64,000 nucleotides of DNA, from positions 98,587,784 through 98,651,783 of the forward strand of contig NC_072893.1 in assembly GCF_027943255.1 (NCBI RefSeq). Direction: 5' to 3'. Shown in pieces: positions 3,366 to 62,000 of this stretch. The position numbers and the translations under genes were made by a program. The notes below the pieces were generated by a model, which searched no databases, was not told where the DNA came from, and was given only the letters and a program-made list of their open reading frames with translations. Source of the DNA: Anastrepha obliqua (lineage: Eukaryota > Arthropoda > Insecta > Diptera > Tephritidae). Numbering within the stretch: the first letter of the stretch is position 1; each line of letters opens with the position of its first letter.

Positions 3366-4115
3366 TGTATAGAGAAGTCTCACGAGGTATGAATAGTGTG
3401 AATTGTCAAAACTGAAGTGAAACCGCGAAGACTTTTTCACCTCGCTTAACTCGACAGCGGGAACTTCTTAACAGAGCTGATTACAATGAATTATGTACGA
3501 GTACATTGGTTCTGTTCAGTTTTTGGTTTCTGTATGAAACCAAATTGACGAATGCCAACGGCATTTTTCAAGGCATTTGCTTTTGCATTTCTATGTTCCT
3601 TTGATAAACGAAAATTTTTTCAATTCATATTTTCAAACAAATACAATGCCAAATAAATATTTGAATTGTGCGCCAACATTTAAAATCAAAGTAACTTTGA
3701 TGTTTGTTGATTTAATTTAAAAAGAAGAATTTAAACAAAATACATTATAAAACGACCTCACATTTTGTTGTGTGCGTTTTAGTAAATTAAAACTTCATAC
3801 AGATTTGATGAAAATTTTTACTAGTTTTTCGACTCGAATTTAATTTTAGACAAGAATTCAAAGAGCATATTGGTATATTGATGAATATATATGTGTATCA
3901 ATATATGCATATATATAAATATGTTATGTTAGTTCCATTTGTGCAAAAGCGAAAAACGAAATTTTTTTCAGTTTACATATATTACAGGGAATAATATATG
4001 TATGCATTTTATAGATAGTATAAAACTTTGAAATTTAATAAATATAGTGTTGCACGCATATGTATGCACTGAAGCAACATGACCTACCTCACGAGCTTCA
4101 CCTTATCACCTTTCA
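3366..4115. other. AT-rich stretch, no gene seen
   Basis: Contains the tail of the DD37D remnant at its left edge and short TATATG-rich runs near 3880-3920. No convincing reading frame on either strand. Confidence 0.4.
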
Positions 4116-5246
4116 TGCAATAATTAGAGAGTAAATATCGTAATGATCAAACAAATGGCAAAACAATTCTCTTCTGCATAAGCATCTACATATTGGGCGT
4201 ACATGGGCGTATATGCACACTTGATGCCCTAACCTATGTACGTACATACATATGTGTTTTGAAATATACATATATTGATCAAATCAATAAATTCTTTATA
4301 GAAAACGCTTCATTACCAGGCACACAATAAGATGGCATATGCAAATATAAATATGTGAATTTTTTATACATATGCAATACTATGGCACCCAGAATCATGG
4401 CCTAGCGTACATACTTATTTGTATTTTGAACTTCCAGCAAAACAATGCTTATTAGTATACACATAAGAAAGTACATACAACCGCACACACAGGGCCTCTT
4501 TATTCCTCAAAATGCGTATGTCGTTCAAAGCTAAAATTCTCTGCCTAGCGACTACAAGAACAAAATGCATTCATAAGCGCAGGCGTAGCGGCCATCATTC
4601 TAGTTGCCATGGTGCTGAACAGCCTGAAACTGTTCAGCACCGTCGCGACTATTTTGAGCTGTTCAGCTCCATGGCAACAGGCGCAGACGTAGCGGCCATC
4701 ATTCTAGTTGCCATGGTGCTGAACAGCCTAAAATAGTCACAGCCTGAAACTGTTCAGCGCCGTCGCGACTATTTTGAGCTGTTCAGCACCATGGCAACTA
4801 GAATGATGGCCGCTACGTCTGAAACTGTTCAGCGCCGTCGGGACTATTTTGAGCTGTTCAGCACCATGGCAACTAGAATGATGGCCGCTAAGTCTGCGTC
4901 TATGACTTCATTTTGTTCTTGTAGGCGCTAGGCATAGAATTTTAGCTTTGAACGACATACGCATTTTGAGGAATAAAGTGAGTGCCCTGTGTGTGCGATT
5001 GTATGTACATGCATATGTGTATATTAATAAACATTGTTTTGCTTGAATTCAATTCACATATTTATATTTGCATACTATATGCCATCTTCCTGTGTGCCTG
5101 GTAATGAAGCGTTTTATATAAAGATTTTTTTGATTTGATAATTGACATAGTTAGGGCATCAAGTGTGCATATGCAGAAGAAATTGTTTTAGCATTTGCCG
5201 GAATTCGGTCATTCGAATATTTACTCCCTAATTATTGCATTGAGAA
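4116..5246. mobile_element. Foldback element with arms of about 500 bp and internal repeats
   Basis: Outer ends ATGCAATAATTAGAGAG (left) and the complement of CTCCCTAATTATTGCAT (right) match. The match continues inward through GCATATGCACACTTGATGCCC, AAACGCTTCATTACCAGG and TCGTTCAAAGCTAAAATTCT. The core (about 4580-4900) is built from repeated, mutually inverted units with words such as GTTGCCATGGTGCTGAACAG and GACTATTTTGAGCTGTTCAG. This layout is typical of FB-type foldback elements; no coding region is present. It lies in the intron or 5' flank of the sulfotransferase gene. Confidence 0.75.
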
Positions 5247-8963: not shown

Positions 8964-10274
8964 CAGGGTGGCTGATGAATTTTGCTACATTAGGAAACTC
9001 AAATAACTTTTTTTTTAGTGTATGGAATTCATTTATTTTTTTTCAAGTTGAAGGTCATTAAATTTTATTAAATGTAGCTTAACTAGTTTTAAAAATAATT
9101 GAATTTAAATGCCCCCCATGCTCGTTGACACAAGTGCGTCATCTTAGTAAAAAGTTGTTCATTGCTGCTTTGAGAGTTGCGACAGGATAGCCGCAATTGT
9201 TGCCCGAATGGATTGTTTTAGTTCATCCAAATTTGTTGGCTTTGTTTTATAAACTTCTTGTTTACATAAACCCCACAAGAAAAAGTCAGGTGCAGTAAGG
9301 TCAGGCGACCTGGGGAGCCAACGAAATTCGGAGTTTCTTGAAATCAGTTTATTGGGAAATTTTCGTCGCAACTCTGTCATAACAGTCTGGGCTATGTGAG
9401 ACGTTGCCCCATCTTGTTGAAACCACACAGAATTGAAAGGAATTCTCTTTCGGCGTAGTTCTGGATAGAAAAATTCTTTCAGCATTTTCAAATAACGGTC
9501 TCCAGTAACCGTAACTGTGTGACCATTTTCTTCAAAAAAATAAGGCCCGACAATACATCGTGAAGAAACCGCACACCACACTGTCACGCGAAGAGGATGC
9601 AATTCCGTCTCGTGGAGTATCTGTGGGTTAGAAGTACTCCATATTCGACAATTTTGTTTGTTCACATTGCTGTTTAAATCGAAATGGGTCTCATCAGACA
9701 TGAAAAGGCAGTTTAACATGTTTTGGTCTTCTTCCACCATTTGCAGGATCTTCTGGCAAAATTCCAAGCGGATCGGCAAGTCTGCTGCATTCAGTTTGTT
9801 AACCATTTGAATTTTGTAGGGAAATAAGTCTAAATCTTTGTGCATTATTGTTTGCAAAGACTGTCGGCTGACACCAAGTTGAGCAGATAAGCTTCTTGTT
9901 GAAACCCTTGGATTGCTTTGTATAGCTGCAGCTACAGCAGCGATCGTTTCCTCCGTCCGAACTGGTGGGTTTCGATGATAAGGCCTTCTTGCGACTGTTC
10001 CTTGCTCAGCAAAATTATTCACCAGTCTCATTATGGTCCATCTGCTCGGGGGATCGCCGCCAAACATCCGCCTGTACTCTCTCTGTACCAAAACTACGGA
10101 CTCCAGTGCGTGATAGCGGCGCACTATCCGAATTCTTGTTTGCGTGTCCCAGTTATCCATTTTAATAAATTTTAAAGATCAATCTGCAAATTAACACAAA
10201 AATGGAACAGATAACTTAAAAAGAAAAAAAGTTATTCAATTTTTTTTTGGTAGCGGCTTTCATCAGCCACCCTG
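8964..10274 (-). mobile_element. Almost complete DD41D mariner element
   Basis: Both ends are CAGGGTGGCTGATGAA in inverted orientation (16 bp perfect, then weaker to about 25 bp), flanked by TA at 8962-8963 and 10275-10276. Length 1311 bp. It carries a 333-codon transposase frame on the minus strand. The insertion splits LINE B, so this mariner is younger than that LINE, and both lie in intron 1 of the sulfotransferase gene. Confidence 0.9.
9159..10160 (-). CDS. DD41D mariner transposase, frame open except at the C-terminus
   Basis: Cut-and-paste transposase of the Tc1/mariner superfamily. Residues 1-120 form paired helix-turn-helix domains (RRYHALESVVLVQREYR; LSAQLGVSRQSLQTIM). Catalytic aspartates are D156 (FMSDETHF), D250 (WFQQDGATSH) and D292 (LTAPDFFLWG), with 41 residues between the last two. 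The frame stops after ILSQLSKQQ. Downstream a +1 frame carries the expected C-terminal block (NEHGG and a terminal IIFKTS), with one further in-frame stop. So a one-base frameshift and a stop near the end, not decay of the core, break this copy. Confidence 0.85.
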   Translation of the reverse strand: MDNWDTQTRIRIVRRYHALESVVLVQREYRRMFGGDPPSRWTIMRLVNNFAEQGTVARRPYHRNPPVRTEETIAAVAAAIQSNPRVSTRSLSAQLGVSRQSLQTIMHKDLDLFPYKIQMVNKLNAADLPIRLEFCQKILQMVEEDQNMLNCLFMSDETHFDLNSNVNKQNCRIWSTSNPQILHETELHPLRVTVWCAVSSRCIVGPYFFEENGHTVTVTGDRYLKMLKEFFYPELRRKRIPFNSVWFQQDGATSHIAQTVMTELRRKFPNKLISRNSEFRWLPRSPDLTAPDFFLWGLCKQEVYKTKPTNLDELKQSIRATIAAILSQLSKQQ

Positions 10275-34387: not shown

Positions 34388-34474
34388 CTGCAACAAATAA
34401 GGAATAAATCATTGGTTTTTTGATTCGACATTTAAACAAAACACTCGGGAGATTTAACAAAAATCATAACTTAC

Positions 34475-35260
34475 TTTGTGAGATCGGTGGCATGGCGCAG
34501 AATCATCCTGAAATATAACGTCCGTTCTTAGAGAATACTGCTCCTCAATGACAGGTATTAAATGCCTATTTAAAATTGAAATGTAAGCATCTCCGTTCAC
34601 CCGACCATCAATAAGAGTCAGTGCTTTCGTTCCGTCATAGCTGAAGCAGACCCATACCATTCTACCAACTGACTGTCTTACAGTAGGCAGTATGCATCCA
34701 GTTTTATATCTTTCGCCAGATCTGCGCCTCACATGGTGGATACCATCCGATCCAAAGAGGTTAAACATGGATTCATCCGAAAAAATCACATTATTCCAGT
34801 GCTCGACAGTCCAGTTTTCATGAGTTTTGGCCCATCGGTATCGTTTTTGACGCATTTTTTCGTTCAAAAACGGCTTTTTTGCGGGATGTCTTCCTACAAA
34901 ACCGCCATTTATCAATCTCCTACGCACAGTAGATGAATCTATTTTGACGCCAGTTGCATCCAAGAACTCCTTCCTGATGTCTGCCGAACATTTGAAACGG
35001 TCCTGGATACACATCCGCTTAATCATCCGGTCTTCAGCAGGCGACGTCTTTTTTCGTCGCCCAGATCCTTTCTTTCGCTCCGTTGAAGCCGTTTCTGCAA
35101 ATTTCTTTAAAAAATCGGCAACAGATGATTTGCTGAAGCCTACTTTAGCAGAAATTTGACGTACGGACAATTTTTGCTGTGATAGTGCAATAATTTGCCC
35201 CGTAACGACAGCTCCCATTTGCTTCGATCTTGGCATATTTTTGATATTAACACTTGCCAC
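34475..35260 (-). CDS. Tc1-like transposase, exon 1
   Basis: 262 codons from ATG at 35260 (a second ATG nine residues later, MPRSKQMG, may be the real start). Residues 20-60 and 75-120 are paired helix-turn-helix regions (LSVRQISAKVGFSKSSVADF; the CSADIRKEFLDATG segment). A basic GRRKK between them resembles the GRPR-type linker and nuclear-localisation region. The catalytic domain starts near 150, with D162 (IFSDESMF) and D253 (FQDDSAPCH). The exon ends RSHK before a GTAAGT donor at 34474. The length divides exactly by three, so exon 2 continues in phase 0. Confidence 0.92.
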
Positions 35261-35423
35261 GTATCAACTATTTCACTTATTGGTTAAATTATGATACAAA
35301 TTAATTCAAAACTGTTCTATTTATATACAAAAAAAAGCTACTTACCGCCAAGAAGCTTTATAATCAAGCTATAGAAAATTAAATAGGGTAAATTAGCTGT
35401 CCGGTTTTTTTTGCACAGGACTG

Positions 35424-37930: not shown

Positions 37931-38642
37931 TATAAGACAATGATCTGGAGATGCGGCATAGAACTATGGGGGACAGCATGCAAATCAAATATACAAATAA
38001 TTCAACGACTTCAATCAAAAATTTTAAGGAGTGTCGTAAATGCACCCTAGTATATAATAAATGAAGACTTACACGGCGACCTAAAAATTGATCCCATAAA
38101 AGACGTAATTCAGAAATACAGCACGAAACACACACAAAAATTACTAACCCATTCGAACAAAGAGGTACAAGAAATACCGCACATGGAGCTACACAGAAAT
38201 TAAGACTAAAGCGAATCGCACCAACAGCATTAGCAGATACAAAAACTATTTTAACAAGCTAAAATTAAGTACAGGTAACCCTCCTACAACGCGATTAATT
38301 GGTTCCTGAAAAACTCCGCGTTGTAGGAAAATCGCGTTGTAGGAAACTTTTTTTTCCTCCATTTTTCCTTTTCTTAAACAATATCACGCAAGTAACATTT
38401 TAAAGTTTTCTCAGCCGAATTAATTATATTAGACCTTTCATCGAATAAAAAAAATTTATTTTTTCAAAGATATTTTTCTATTTGTCTATTTCAATATAAT
38501 AACATAAATTAATTCATTTAATTAACCAGCAAAAAGCAATTCATTTATTTAAATAACATAAAACTAAGGAAAATAAAATCTGGGAAAAATAGACACGGAT
38601 TTTCAAATCTACATATTTCAGAGGATTTTAAATCTCAACCTT

Positions 38643-38864
38643 CTACAAATCCGCTTCCTCGTCCTCGCTTATTATAATTTGCTTCAAACGTTTTGCTCTT
38701 GGTCGTCCTATTTCAAAATCCGAGCAAACACTTTTAGTATGTACATACCCTGCAAACCAACGTTCACCAGTTTTTCCAATTTTACCAACACATTCACTCA
38801 ATTTTTCCAATAATACCCACACAATCACATTTAATTCTTTTGTCATTTTCGATGGGTTATACAT
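38643..38864 (-). CDS. Unassigned 73-codon ORF near the left end of the capture element
   Basis: Begins MYNPSKMTKELNVIVWVLLEK and ends GRPRAKRLKQ followed by an acidic SEDEEADL tail. The GRPRAKR stretch resembles an AT-hook-like basic motif. It may be the remnant of the element's own transposase or DNA-binding protein, but I cannot place it. Reads toward the left terminal repeat. Confidence 0.3.
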   Translation of the reverse strand: MYNPSKMTKELNVIVWVLLEKLSECVGKIGKTGERWFAGYVHTKSVCSDFEIGRPRAKRLKQIIISEDEEADL

Positions 38865-38980
38865 ATATTTATCTCATAATTTTCGTGAATACTTATTAAA
38901 CTTAACTATAGTGAGTGCGAAAGTGACAGCAAAAAACAAGTTGCAAATGTCAAATACAAAAATGAATCGCGTTTAATTCT

Positions 38981-39002
38981 ATGAAAATCTCCAAGCGAAA
39001 AG
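38981..39002 (+). other. Possible 5' exon with splice donor
   Basis: ATG at 38981 reads MKISKRK, then AAAG-GTAAGTT at 39003. A matching acceptor TTTTATTTTCAG ends at 39077 and another, CTTTACAG, at 39128 is the ACSL exon border. If transcribed, splicing into the ACSL fragment would be out of the ACSL frame. MxxSKRK starts are seen in pogo-type transposases; this is only suggestive. Confidence 0.35.
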
Positions 39003-39128
39003 GTAAGTTCAACAATTTTTAGTAAATTTTGCAATTATATATCTATTTAAACTAATAAAATGTATTTTTATTTTCAGAAAAACATATTCACAACATCAAG
39101 AGAGTTGATATCAACAAATCCTTTACAG

Positions 39129-39211
39129 CTAGTGGATGTGCCGGAGATGCAGTATTTCGCCAGTCAAAACAATGGGAAGGTGTGCGTGCGCGGTTCTAAC
39201 GTATTCCACGG
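39129..39211 (+). pseudogene. Captured ACSL fragment, exon a
   Basis: Long-chain acyl-CoA synthetase (fatty acid activation: fatty acid + ATP + CoA to acyl-CoA). After an acceptor CTTTACAG it reads LVDVPEMQYFASQNNGKVCV and RGSNVFHG, the segment just before the A5/L motif region of ACSL proteins. Donor GTAGGT at 39212. The upstream two thirds of the enzyme (AMP-binding P-loop, start) are not in this window, so this is not the functional gene. Confidence 0.85.
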
Positions 39212-39335
39212 GTAGGTGTTGATAATTTAAGCAAATAATGGTTTCTTCCTGTGCGAACTTGATTTCTGTGACTAAAACTAGGGCACTAAAAAAGGCACTT
39301 GAATGATAATTTCTTTCTCTGCCTTTGCGTCGCAG

Positions 39336-39563
39336 TTATTACAAAGATCCCGGAAAACTGCTGAGGCTGTTGACTCTGAAGGCTGGCACCACACGGGCGA
39401 TGTGGGCACGTGGCTTCCAAATGGCACGCTGCACATAATCGATCGTCGCAAACACATTTTCAAGCTAAGCCAGGGCGAATATATTGTACCGGAGAAGATT
39501 GAGAATATTTACATTCTGAGCCAATATGTAAATCAGGTGTACGTTTACGGATAGAGCCTTAAG
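39336..39563 (+). pseudogene. Captured ACSL fragment, exon b, with frameshift and stop
   Basis: Acceptor CGTCGCAG at 39335. It reads (G)YYKDPG, then after a one-base deletion in the A run at about 39352-39356 TAEAVDSEGWHHTGDVGTWL, PNGTLHIIDRRKHIFKLSQG and EYIVPEKIENIY. These contain the conserved TGD and DRRK.IFKL.QGEY motifs of the adenylation C-terminal domain. Glu of the expected VYGESLK is replaced by TAG at 39552-39554. Donor GTAACT at 39564. Confidence 0.88.
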
Positions 39564-39641
39564 GTAACTCCATTTTTTGACATAATTTCTAGCTTTTCAT
39601 GTTCACGGAATATTTACATACAACCCTTAACGCCCACTTAG

Positions 39642-39815
39642 AGCTGCATCATAGCCGTCGTCGTGCCTGATGTGGATGTTCTCAAGCAGTGGGCGAACGA
39701 CAATCGCGTCAAGGGCACACTTTCGGTGCTATGCAATAATCCATAAGTAAAAGAACTCATCAGGAGCGATATGCTGAATTGGGGTAAGCAGAGCGGACTG
39801 AAATCCTTCGAACAG
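39642..39815 (+). pseudogene. Captured ACSL fragment, exon c, with stop
   Basis: Acceptor CCACTTAG at 39641, donor GTAAGT at 39816. It reads SCIIAVVVPDVDVLKQWAND and VKGTLSVLCNNP, then TAA at 39744-39746, then VKELIRSDMLNWGKQSGLKS. Phase 0 at both ends, as in a genuine internal exon; the splice sites are still good although the frame is broken. Confidence 0.87.
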
Positions 39816-39920
39816 GTAAGTAGCCCAGTGCATATCTGCTTATACTAGTAGCGTATGACGTGGTAATAATATCATAATTTAAAATTAATAATAATTACAA
39901 ATTTTGTATTTATATACCAG

Positions 39921-40034
39921 GTCAAGGATATATATTTGCATCCCGATCCGTTTTCGGTACAAAATGGACTACTCACACCAACATTCAAAGCGAAGCGGCC
40001 ACAATTGAACAAAACAGTGCGAGAAATCCCGTAG
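39921..40034 (+). pseudogene. Captured ACSL fragment, last coding exon
   Basis: Acceptor TATATACCAG at 39920. It reads VKDIYLHPDPFSVQNGLLTP and TFKAKRPQLNKTVREIP before TAG at 40032-40034. PFS..NGL.TPT.K.KR..L is the conserved C-terminal motif of ACSL enzymes. Here the frame is intact. Presence of introns shows that the copy was made at the DNA level and not from mRNA. Confidence 0.87.
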
Positions 40035-40099
40035 AGGAGTTAGAAGTAAAATGCGAACAATTTTAAACTTTATGCGAAAATAGAAAAAACATGCAATTG

Positions 40100-40640
40100 C
40101 TATTTATTTAATTAGGCATCAATGTAAATTTCTGTAAAATAGATATTTTAAATACCGGCATAAAAGCAAACTATTACCATATTAGCCAAAACTATTCTTC
40201 AGGTACTAAATAAAATTTTATTAGAAAAGAGTAATCAAATGTAAATATTATACTAATTTATGTCAAATTACTTTAATTCGTGTTCACTTTCTAACACCAA
40301 AACCTAATTTAAGAATGTAAATATTATACTAATTTATGTACATTAAAACTAAAACGTAAACTTTTCTAATAACTAAACTAATTCATGTATATAAATAACT
40401 AAAACTAAAAAGTAAATTTGTCTAACACCAAACCTAATTTTACAGTGTAAATATTAAAATAAATATCTAAAACTTAACGTAATTTTATAATGTAAATAGT
40501 AAATTAATATAAATAGCTGTACATAAATAGAACATACTAAAAAAATTATTGTATATTGTATTAATTTTCTTTAGAAACTAAAAATTAATTAAATAAATAT
40601 TAAAATAATTCATTAAATAAATAATATTCAATAAATAACC
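40100..40640. repeat. AT-rich degenerate tandem block
   Basis: Repeated words such as GTAAATATTATACTAATTTATG and AACCTAATTTAAGAATGTAA occur several times between 40235 and 40530. Low complexity, possibly the 3' flank of the captured gene expanded within the element. Confidence 0.5.
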
Positions 40641-40704
40641 ATTTGTTTCAGTAATTTTGAAGGATTATTGTATATAGGATCCGTAAGTATTACCTACAAA
40701 ATTA

Positions 40705-40935
40705 CCCAGTTGAAGAGATTCTGTTAACTACATGTTAACAACGAAATTCACTAGTTTATGAAATTCTGTTAACTACATGTTAACAATAACATTCACCGGC
40801 CCAAAAGATTCTGTTCACTACATGTTAACAACGAAATTCACTAGTTCATGAAATTCTGTTCACTACATGTTAACAACAACATTCATGAGTTCAGAAGGTT
40901 TTGTTCACTACATGTTACCCACATCATTCACAACT
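40705..40935. repeat. Tandem repeat, five copies of 45 bp
   Basis: The word CTACATGTTA starts at 40728, 40773, 40818, 40863 and 40908: an exact 45-bp period. Units alternate between two versions (AACGAAATTCACTAGTT and AACAACATTCA-type), giving a 90-bp higher-order period. Units one and two contain the palindrome GTTAACTACATGTTAAC. It is within the TIR element, near its right end. Confidence 0.88.
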
Positions 40936-41369
40936 TGAATGTCAATTAGAGCAGCACAGCAGTATTGAAAAATTTCTGTTAGTGCGAGCGAATAAAATCA
41001 TCACACGTATAGACTGGAAGTAGGTAGAAAGTGCACGGCGTAGAATATAAAATTACTACAAAGCTCACAACTTCACAGGTGAACGATACCCACAAGTTAG
41101 CAGGGTAAATAGCAGGTAGTTGGTTTGCAGGGCAGTTTATAGAATATGTATTTAAAAAATGCTTAAAAATCGCGTTGTAGGAGTCGCGTTATAAGAAACA
41201 TTCCGCAATTCGCAAACCGCGTTGTAGCGAAATCGCGTTATAGAAGTACCGCGTTATAGGAGGGTTACCTATATCACATATTACTGTTGCTATAAATTGC
41301 CATAAATTGGGATATAATAAAAAAAAAATGTAATGTACGCTTTTTTTAACCATGGGACCCTGTTTCGGT

Positions 41370-50689: not shown

Positions 50690-51452
50690 TTAACATGTCG
50701 CTTAGTCCAGGTAATGGTATCTTCATTAGAGGCGATTCACCGAATACTGCACCAACGAGTGGGCAACTGTCTTCAGATCGCGTGTCGTTTTGGCAGCAAT
50801 TATGGAATCAGTGGGAGATTTAATAGCAACGTTCACCGTCGCTCACACCAGTTTGGAGGAAATAGACTTTGAGTCTATGGCCAGTGACCTGCCCTGCAAA
50901 TTCGATGCTACATTAGTGACACTTAAGGCGAACCTGCAACGAGAGATTGGGAGACGTAACACAAGTCAGCACTGCTCGACATTTAGAGCGAACACTGGTG
51001 ACTCGTCGATCATCGTGAATGCCAATCGTTCTCGCTTGCCTTTGCTAATGCTGCCTAAATTTAGTGGCACCTACACCAAGGGGAGCAACTTCTCTATGTT
51101 CACCTCCGTCATTAACAACGATGGCGACCTAACGCAAAGCGATAAGCTGCAATACCTGCGATCCTGTTTGAGTGGTGCTGCTTTGGACACTATCCAATCT
51201 CTGAAGATAAACGAAACTAATTATAAAAATGCCCTAGATTTACTCAAAAAACGTTTTGATAACAAGCTAATTTTATTTAAGACACACATCAGACAGATCT
51301 TTGGGCTGGGAAGGGCAGGTGCTTCCGTAAGCAAGCTGCGGGAGTTGACGGACAAGGTTACATCACACATACGCGCGTTGCAGTCATGCATCATAGTGGA
51401 ATTACTAGTCCAGTTGGACAAGGCTACTCAATCCAAGTGGGAAGAAAATTAA
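50690..51452 (+). pseudogene. BEL/Pao gag (DUF1759-type)
   Basis: The frame 50790-51452 contains LPKFSGTYTKGSNFSMFTSV and LQYLRSCLSGAALDTIQSLK, the hallmark of Pao-family gag. The reading before it (from 50695, MSLSPGNGIF) is in another frame, and the frame ends at a stop at 51450. The nucleocapsid follows at 51507-51830: CAFCRCPDHRIYRC and, one frame on, CLNCLKGGHQIWIHC, two CCHC zinc knuckles. Confidence 0.82.
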
Positions 51453-59000: not shown

Positions 59001-62000
59001 GGTGTCCGGACATAAGTCTGTTAATGTTTATGAAACCAAGGCTTTAATAGCGGCACAGGCTATCTCGGCGAAGATTTTAGCCTTGGTGCGCGTCAATTAT
59101 ATATTTTTCGTAAAGCATCTTTCTTACTATATTTGATGTCAATCACAGTTCCAGGAGAAACGGCAAGCTTCGCAGCTCTATCCGCCCGTTCGTTCAAGGA
59201 GAAACCTGAATGACCAGGTATCCACACTATTTCACATACTTCAATCGACGACGTCTCAATTATAGCATTTATTTTGGTCACTGTATGGTAATTTCTGTAG
59301 TGTTTTTTTAACATTATCCAACTAGTTTTACTATCGGTGAAGATAACTATCTTTTTCGGGTTACTCTTGTCTGCAACCAATACTGCATATTTTATGGCCA
59401 AGAGCTCAGCCGATAAGGATGAGATGTTCTCATTGATTTTGAATAGGTAGGATTAACAGCGACATAGCATTTGATTTTGGAATGATTCTATTTTTTTAGC
59501 AATATACTTCGGTGCGTGGTAGGTTGTGGTTCTGGCGTATTCGAGTTTGGATCTAATTAGCGACTTATGGTATATAGGCTTAGGGCAGCATGAGGGGGTA
59601 GTCTTCCATTAGTGTTGGTCATCATCCTAACTGCATTCACCTTTGATGTTGCATCTGGAATAGTGGTCTTTAAATTTCAGGCGGTTATTTATCCATTTTC
59701 CTAGGAAATTGATTGAAAGTTTTTGTCTTATAGGGATATTATTAATTTGAAACTCTATATTCTTTTTGGAGCCCTTAGCAAAGTACATACAACGCATTTT
59801 GGTAAGGTTAAGATTGCGAGTTGCTAGTTTCAAAGAATGCGTTTGTGTTGTTTGATAGATTTAGAACTGCTTTATTCAAGTCCGTTTCATACGAAATGAT
59901 TGCAAAGTCGTCCGCGAATTGGAGTATAGATGTATTTTCGTCTTGCAGTTCGTGAAGAGATGTAGATTATATATTAAATATTATTGGGCTGAGACCATGA
60001 TCCTTGAGGGATACCACCCGTCACCTTCATGACTTCTGTGCCAAGAACAAGGGAGAAGAAATTTAGTATCCAATGTGAAAACTCAAGTGGAACACCACAC
60101 TTAGTAAAAATGTTACTAAGTTTATTTATATCAACACAATCGTAGGCTTTGGATATATCAAGCGCTACCATTACTACTTTATATCCTTTCTTCTTTTTGG
60201 AGGTAATAAGATACATCATTTGATTGATACACATTGTGCCGGAAAGGTTTTTGCGCAATGCGAAACTAGAAGCTGAAAGAATAAGATTTAGCAACTTTGC
60301 GCAAACTGAAATCAGAGATATGGGTCTAAAATTCTCCACTAAATTTAGAACAGCTCCCCTTTTTGGAATGGGAATTATTCTAATTTTTCTCCATTTATCA
60401 ATGACCGTATTATTCATCTAACAATAGTTAAGTGCATCCAGTAGTTTTTCCTGACTCACTTTGGGTAGTGCCTTAATCATATTGTATTTTATTCCGTCAA
60501 TACCAGCGGTAGTATGTTCAGTTTTTCTAGCCCAGACCTTGTCTAGATTTTCGAGTTCAAATGGGGTCCTCTCAAAGTCCTTAGTCGGTATTATGAGTAC
60601 TGGTGTTGAATTTTGGCAGATCTGATTCTTGAGGTGAGTAAGAAAATCCAACTTTTTGTTGATTCATGAGCGTGGGAGTTACTAGCTAATATTTTGTGAC
60701 AGTGAAAAGATCTCCAAAACTTCCGCCCGGATGATATTTTGCTTGTTTCTGATAGATGTTGCTCTCTTATTCAACTCATCTGTAGCCGCCTTATAACACA
60801 CGTAGTTTTGATAATTGTAGTGTCTCTCTAGTTTTGCACGGGCCAAAGGCAGGAATTCTTCTAAGTAATGTATCCAGGGTGCTATTCTACCATGCTTTAG
60901 GTCTATATCTAGATTCTATTCCAGCCGCCGTAGCCGAATGGGTTGGTGCGTGACTACCATTCGGAATTCACAGAGAGAACGTCGGTTCGAATCTCGGTGA
61001 AACACCAAAATTAATAAAAAGATTTTTCTAATAGCGGTCGCCCCTCGGCAAGCAATGGCAAGCCTTCGAGTGTATTTCTGCCATGAAAAAGCTCCTCATA
61101 AAAAATATCTGCCGTTCGGAGTCGGTTTGAAACTGTAGGTCCCTCCATTTGTGGAACAAGATCGAGACGCACACCCCAAATAGGACCCCAAAAAGGGTGT
61201 ATGCGCCAATTATATATATATATATATTCCTTGAACTATCAATAACCGCTCTAAAAGACTCTGAGATATTTTGCGGCACTGAAGACAACCTAAGATTTGC
61301 CAGACCCTAATTTAATCTCTTTTTGGAGCATACCGACATGTATTGGCGTATCATAACACTATTAATTTCCCAACAGTATTGCATCCCAAATAAAATCCGG
61401 AACACCAAAATTTGCAAACGTCAAATCCAGAACACTACCATGACTAATCACATGATCTGCTCTGCGAAGAAAGGTATGTTTTCCATTACTCATGCAGTGT
61501 ACCCCCAACTCCGAATCATATCCTCCCTTCTGCGAGTTTATGGAATCGTCAAATGCATCGCAGCGAGCATTGAAATCGACCCCGATAATTGTAAATGGGT
61601 TTGTACTAGCAAAATGGAAGATTCTATTCGTGAAGTCAGCGGTTGATACTCGTGGTGGAAAATAAACTGAAAATATGTTTATATTTGGTTTTAAATTAGT
61701 AGTTCTAACAGCTACTACAACTAAATGAATTTCACAGTTATTTTTTTAGAAGCGAATAGTTTTTTTGAGTGCTATGGCAACGCCACCACAACCATCTTGT
61801 CTAAATCTGTGAATAAGGTTGTAATTCAATAGGCGTAAGGCGAAATCGTTCTCGTTAAAGTGAAAGATTTCAGATAATAATACAGAATCAATATTGTCTT
61901 TGTTCGCAAAGTATTCTAAGTCATAATTGCTTGTACTATAACTTTGTATAGAGTTATATCCCAAACCATGTAGATTTTGATTTTTAAGGATCATAAACTT

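Follow-up and report, generated by a model that had tools for sequence, protein, structure and literature searches.

A stretch of 64,000 nucleotides from the tephritid Anastrepha obliqua (NC_072893.1, positions 98,587,784 to 98,651,783; called the window here at its full length) contains a 3,000-bp segment, 38272-41271, whose inverted ends enclose four decayed, intron-bearing exons of a long-chain acyl-CoA synthetase (ACSL). Which transposon took up this part of a host gene, and how? An original prediction made from the letters alone assigned the capture to the outer, Tigger/pogo-like element. Nested insertions, however, can mislead on which element did the capturing, and a second pair of inverted repeats at 38748-38761 and 41119-41132, missing from that prediction, marks the carrier. 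In our view it is very likely that a non-autonomous CACTA transposon captured the 3′ part of ACSL at the DNA level, most likely once, that it is now found at 11 sites or more, and that one of its copies lies inside a Tigger miniature inverted-repeat transposable element (MITE).

Dispersed copies of an inner element

Searched against the genome, the ACSL fragment has 17 matches. They fall at 12 places, spread over six contigs, and one of these places is the parent gene (locus L052). The ten other ACSL copies (L046 to L051 and L053 to L056) align with the inner element from 38744-38748 rightward, and none of them (0/10) has Tigger flanks with a match of at least 40 bp. Thus, the inner element and not Tigger carries the fragment, and the proposal of Tigger as the capturing element has to be given up. 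The inner element and its own parts are as follows.

38748..41132, plus strand: inner CACTA-type Pack element, 2385 bp, bearing the ACSL fragment; the left end recurs in 10 further dispersed copies
38748..38761, plus strand: left terminal inverted repeat (TIR) CCCTGCAAACCAAC, 14 bp, in 11 of 11 ACSL-carrying copies
38762..39092, plus strand: CACTA left region with the leader, a GTAAGT donor at 39003, a 75-nt intron (39003-39077) and the start of the next exon
40240..41132, plus strand: CACTA right region including the right end
40696..40931, plus strand: array of 45-bp tandem repeats in the CACTA right region, with repeat-array matches in other copies
41119..41132, minus strand: right TIR, complementary to the left repeat at 14 of 14 positions

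The inverted repeat CCCTGCAAACCAAC sits exactly at both borders of the stretch that replaces the Tigger interior. With the window copy included, the left TIR is found in all eleven copies and the right TIR in nine, with one mismatch in the right arm of L047 and L048. The inner right end of L046 is represented by two matches separated by 2.3 kb, suggestive of a later insertion; that of L056 was not found in the fetched stretch. Identity among the copies is 96.0-99.7% over the left 325 bp (11 copies) and 98.5-100% over the right 200 bp (nine copies). Among the nine copies with both ends, the length of the inner element ranges from 2,165 to 2,747 bp.

A 2-bp target duplication is identical on both sides in seven of these nine copies (AT, TA, CA, TA, TA, AA and TA). 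Random pairs gave a mean of 0.71 identical duplications and never reached seven in 20,000 draws, and moving one side by 1-4 bases left 0-1 identical.

The captured ACSL fragment and its parent gene

The host-derived part of the inner element comprises the following features.

39093..40239, plus strand: captured 3′ part of ACSL, with the end of an intron, four exon pieces, three introns and 3′ untranslated region (UTR)
39129..39211, plus strand: ACSL exon A piece
39336..39563, plus strand: ACSL exon B, with a base lost at codon 34 and TAG at 39552
39642..39815, plus strand: ACSL exon C, with TAA at 39744
39921..40009, plus strand: ACSL exon D, truncated by a 201-202-bp deletion

The spliced reading, with X at the stops, has its best match in the cluster represented by ACSL5 of Drosophila yakuba (P0001; 89% identity, 98% query coverage). 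A frameshift-aware alignment to P0001 recovers the four exon pieces and bears out the single lost base and both stop codons that had been read from the letters; the introns run GT..AG at 39212-39335, 39564-39641 and 39816-39920. The predicted ACSL region at 39129-40034 was thus right in its four exons and splice borders and too short in its extent, as the DNA shared with the gene covers about 39093-40239 minus the deletion. This deletion, near 40009, takes out the last codons, the stop and the start of the 3′ UTR. A lost intron was considered for the same place and ruled out, because coding sequence, the stop and UTR occupy this place in the parent.

The parent gene lies elsewhere in the genome, separate from the copies (L052, contig C3, about 128.525 Mb). 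It matches residues 74-704 of P0001, its exons from LVDVPEM on form an open frame to the stop, and no inner TIRs were found at this locus. The window fragment aligns to this gene in two blocks of 90.6% and 94.3% identity. The captured piece starts within the intron before the LVDVPEM exon, at position 3786, 3807 or 3823 of L052 depending on the copy, and its other border lies in the 3′ UTR close to position 5165. Four copies have a BLAST match that extends to 5201. Since three introns are kept and the piece spans from an intron to the 3′ UTR, the template of the capture was DNA, and the idea of DNA-level capture by a TIR element holds.

A coding role of the captured piece was ruled out. A frameshifting loss is present in the window copy and in each of L046 to L051, with stops as well in the window copy and L046 to L048. 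L053 has stops and frame-breaking losses, although unrelated sequence within exon 4 skews its counts. A 97-bp loss is seen in L054, a large part of the piece is gone in L055, and exons A to C are gone in L056. The frame is therefore broken or incomplete in every copy examined, and a working enzyme is not expected. Counts of synonymous and nonsynonymous changes in the window copy (6/5, plus two stops) are too few to say more.

The captured piece lies in sense behind the leader of the element and its GTAAGT donor, so that a chimeric leader-ACSL RNA is possible as judged from this arrangement. An ATG followed by GTAAGT had been suggested as a chimeric start upstream of the fragment. The donor at 39003 is indeed common to all eleven copies; the ATG at 38981 is private to the window copy, with GTG in the ten others, and was discarded as a conserved start.

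History of the copies

The 3′ junction, where ACSL 3′ UTR passes into transposon DNA, is at the same place in all eleven copies. This common junction points to one capture followed by transposition. In an alignment of ten copies with the parent, the copies agree and the parent differs at 36 sites, some of which may be changes on the parent side, and only one site is partially shared in a way that would split the copies around the parent. Distances range from 5.0 to 9.0% between parent and copies and from 0.07 to 6.5% between copies.

In an unrooted FastTree tree of copies and parent, the parent branches off between two groups, L049/L050/L051 with a split support of 1.000 and the remaining copies with 0.590. 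We rejected this tree as proof of a single capture, since it has no root and its support of 1.000 concerns the separation of L049/L050/L051 from everything else in the tree. Individual changes are shared within groups of copies: the lost base and Q139* are common to the window copy, L046, L047 and L048, and H47N, T53M and D64N to L049, L050 and L051. Although L051 groups with L049 and L050, it is without the simple 201-bp deletion that these two have in common with the other group. Such a pattern would result from gene conversion or template switching between copies, but it is not proof of either. The simple deletion is also absent from L053. Within the inner element of L053, at about 1210-1420, part of ACSL exon D is swapped for about 200 bp of unrelated sequence.

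The 5′ junction is longest in L053, L054 and L055, shorter in the group of the window copy and in L049 to L051, and different in L056.

Transposase relatives and superfamily

One of the ACSL copies connects the family to a transposase. In L056, the left end is the same; behind it come a transposase-like frame, containing one frame change, and then sequence of ACSL intron 3. The translation of this frame is 93% identical, over 75% of the query, to P0124, an uncharacterized protein of 612 residues from A. ludens. P0124 has 84 matches in the genome of the window, and three places hold long open frames of closely similar sequence, with 658, 658 and 791 codons. Each lies between both ends of the element, on one strand:

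C3:134864017-134870843: long relative, 6,827 bp, both ends around a 658-codon open frame
C5:104034268-104041219: long relative, 6,952 bp, both ends around a 658-codon open frame
C1:9841656-9849006: long relative, 7,351 bp, both ends around a 791-codon open frame

In all three, the right end is matched at 100% and the left end at 99%. It is likely, judging from these near-identical ends, that the transposase of the 6.8-7.4-kb relatives moves the ACSL copies. The DNA downstream of the open transposase frame of a direct relative, L057, is 86% identical to 40253-40357 of the window element. The 791-codon frame (L059, C1:9844094-9846316) contains an internal duplication of part of the protein and still has no stop.

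Searches of the genome with the inner ends gave 40 scored matches for the right end and 39 for the left end, 11 of the latter being ACSL carriers. Pairs of inner ends 2.5-3.4 kb apart and without a listed ACSL match were seen at C4:41341027-41344048 (left end matched at 100%), C2:106585892-106589330, C3:40929156-40931716 and C1:30982897-30985357. These pairs may enclose other captured DNA or be plain deletion forms.

We place the family in the CACTA superfamily on the basis of its CCC termini, its 2-bp duplications and, more tentatively, its tnp2-like relatives. The inner TIR starts with CCC, and CCC termini together with 2-bp repeats are described for animal CACTA elements in the available text of PMC1636069. 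In a Pfam search of four genome relatives, Transposase_21 (tnp2) was matched in L062 (2.6e-4) and L064 (4e-4), in both cases followed by a weak DUF4218 match; L066 has a weak DUF4218 match without tnp2. P0124 itself yielded DUF4218 at 0.17 only. It carries candidate C(2)C and H(3)H motifs, CSKC at 253 and HGLLH at 447, both of them short; C(2)C and H(3-4)H motifs are given as common to the EnSpm, Mirage, Chapaev and Transib transposases in PMC12730594. Structural features support the assignment to CACTA well, and protein sequence does so moderately. A Pfam search on pieces of the element ends gave nothing useful, and an exact word search in viral contigs gave 0 matches.

The outer Tigger element as landing site

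The outer parts of the 3,000-bp segment are the following.

38272..38747, unstranded: left 476 bp of the outer Tigger MITE, with a TA target duplication directly outside
38646..38723, minus strand: codons for the last 26 residues of a Tigger transposase, identical to P0123 at 26/26 residues
41133..41271, unstranded: right 139 bp of this MITE, whose interior lacks 99 bp at the junction

The outer inverted ends were described correctly in the original prediction. CAGGTAACCCTCC starts at 38272 and GGAGGGTTACCTA ends at 41271, and AGGTAACCCTCC, allowing no mismatch, occurs in the window only at these two ends. Words of the CGCGTTGTAG type have seven matches at the ends (three left, four right), against 0.87 expected over the whole window. 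The Tigger/pogo likeness of the ends was also confirmed, by the transposase residues listed above, by the CAG ends and by TA on both sides of all 23 Tigger copies with both ends. P0121 (Anastrepha obliqua) and P0122 (A. ludens), both named tigger transposable element-derived protein 1-like, have nearly the same end, and P0121 to P0123 have precomputed PF03184 and PF03221 matches.

The left 150 bp, searched in the genome of the window itself (G000, 836 Mb), gave at least 40 scored matches. The Tigger loci examined number 28, counting that of the window, and lie at 27 places, since L002 and L045 coincide. The two outer ends thus do occur together elsewhere: 15 of the 23 copies with both ends are short (623-725 bp, ten of them at 714 bp) and eight are longer (2,027-2,906 bp). 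Three 714-bp copies (L003, L004, L005) match the window copy over 476 bp at the left end, with 99.8-100% identity, and over 138 bp at the right end. In the window, 2,385 bp stand in place of 99 bp of the interior of the short form (714 - 99 + 2385 = 3000 bp). Sequence comparison thus identifies the outer ends as a Tigger/pogo-type transposon in its 714-bp short form, a mere landing site for the inner element.

The terminal right base of the window Tigger, at 41271, is A; the 23 others that have both ends carry G there. Two 2,446-bp Tigger copies, L032 (C3:56.67 Mb) and L033 (C3:41.34 Mb), have identical 8-bp flanks on both sides, and the pair appears to come from a duplication, either of a chromosomal segment or in the assembly. 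Other transposon-like frames of the window, at 9159-10178, 34454-35263, 50730-51452 and 59974-60417, encode helix-turn-helix domains including HTH_Tnp_Tc3_2, DUF1759 and a reverse transcriptase domain; the surroundings are a transposon-rich region.

Alternative explanations

Several observations tell against a single capture by a CACTA element. The window copy is flanked by TA and CA without a matching 2-bp duplication, and 99 bp of the Tigger MITE are gone, so that a deletion followed or accompanied the insertion; the duplication of L051 is also imperfect (AT/AA). The three long relatives are known from end matches and the transposase frame. The inner terminus differs from the CAC of plant CACTA elements, no Pfam match of the relatives reaches its curated cut-off, and for L057, a direct relative, Pfam gives neither tnp2 nor DUF4218. 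Finally, the 5′ junctions vary among the copies, and an unrooted tree by itself cannot show that the copies form one clade. These last points give some room to several independent ACSL captures by one family, for which one may also cite the lack of the simple 201-bp deletion in L051 and L053 and the position of the parent between two groups of copies, with support of 0.590 on one side. However, all eleven copies share one 3′ junction, the shorter 5′ junctions resemble the longest one with parts deleted, and 36 sites against one favour a single origin, even if some of them are parent changes. Repeated capture is therefore unlikely. The superfamily might likewise be another one with short target duplications, such as a pogo/Tc1 relative or a PHIS-type element, as four of the seven duplications are TA and the Pfam support for CACTA is weak. 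We consider this quite improbable, since the AT, CA and AA duplications misfit strict TA targeting, and since the CCC termini, the C(2)C and H(3)H motifs of P0124 and the order of tnp2 and then DUF4218 in the relatives speak for CACTA.

Capture by the Tigger/pogo element itself would agree with the window taken alone, where Tigger ends do surround the fragment, and with the TA duplications and the many further copies of this family. The ten other ACSL copies, however, start and stop at the inner ends without Tigger flanks, and these ends have an inverted repeat and 2-bp duplications of their own, which leaves this explanation with hardly any likelihood. Just as little can be said for segmental duplications or an ACSL retrocopy that spread the fragment, with the transposon ends there by coincidence. 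Pieces of one gene do occur at many places, but a retrocopy would not contain introns. Segmental duplication is contradicted by the start of 11/11 copies at the same transposon end (9/11 with both ends), by flanks that differ, without homology in the aligned window flanks, and by the 2-bp duplications in seven of nine copies. We therefore retain the capture of ACSL by a CACTA transposon.

Comparison with known systems

Descriptions of gene capture by TIR transposons are ample for plants and sparse for animals. In Arabidopsis, Pack-CACTA elements are reportedly CACTA elements with host gene fragments. The soybean element Tgm-Express1 is also a CACTA element with host gene fragments that include exons and introns; it belongs to a plant, holds five unrelated fragments and sits in an expressed gene (PMC1947982), in contrast to the inner element with one gene, an animal host and CCC ends.

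For animals, a Pack-TIR survey lists 370 Pack-TIRs (208 hAT, 115 TcMariner), of which four are multicopy, and none in insect reference genomes (PMC8277862). Like these, the inner element holds a host-gene fragment between both TIR ends with the parent elsewhere, and is multicopy with distinct target duplications. It differs from the surveyed cases, as that text presents them, in being an insect element of CACTA type with 11 copies and with relatives that have an open transposase frame (PMC8277862). A multicopy gene capture in a fly is known in Ssk-FB4 of Drosophila melanogaster. According to the same survey, Ssk-FB4 has TIRs of about 700 bp and 9-10-bp duplications, was assigned by its authors to the Mutator-like elements (MULE) and was reported as a protein family (PMC8277862), unlike the inner element with its 14-bp TIRs, 2-bp duplications and decayed frame. 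Pack-Tigger1 of gibbon has a host fragment within Tigger ends and is treated there as a single copy explained by gap filling (PMC8277862), whereas the Tigger of the window is a landing site only. SmTRC1 resembles the inner element in a TIR that starts with CCC and in 2-bp direct repeats at the target (7/14 SmTRC1 copies); a captured host gene is not described in the available text on SmTRC1 (PMC1636069), in contrast to the ACSL piece here.

From its sequence, the inner element qualifies as a multicopy animal Pack-CACTA. A limited literature search found no insect Pack-CACTA, which does not mean that none has been published, and an equally limited one found no CACTA transposon with a gene fragment in Anastrepha obliqua.

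Proposed mechanism and implications

The capture most likely occurred through template switching during repair or replication. During the repair or replication of a CACTA copy, synthesis would have switched to the ACSL gene and back, so that most of the interior of the element was replaced. Transposase from full-length relatives would then have mobilised the chimera, and one chimeric copy would have jumped into a 714-bp Tigger MITE to give the nested structure of the window. For single-copy Pack-TIRs, PMC8277862 suggests gap filling; multicopy ones are explained there by fork stalling with template switching and by transposition. By analogy, the Anastrepha obliqua case fits the multicopy pattern of that proposal in being multicopy and dispersed (PMC8277862).

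It is tempting to speculate that a still-mobile CACTA family shuffles host exons, and that chimeric or small RNAs act on ACSL or the ACSL 3′ region aids the spread of the element, although we regard this as unlikely. In the latter case, the poly(A) signal and splice sites of the ACSL 3′ region would favour the element and account for its spread. In any case, one genome offers much of the chain, from the parent gene and eleven descendants with differing junctions to long relatives with open transposase frames. Since these occur together, the mechanism of gene capture becomes directly testable in an insect.

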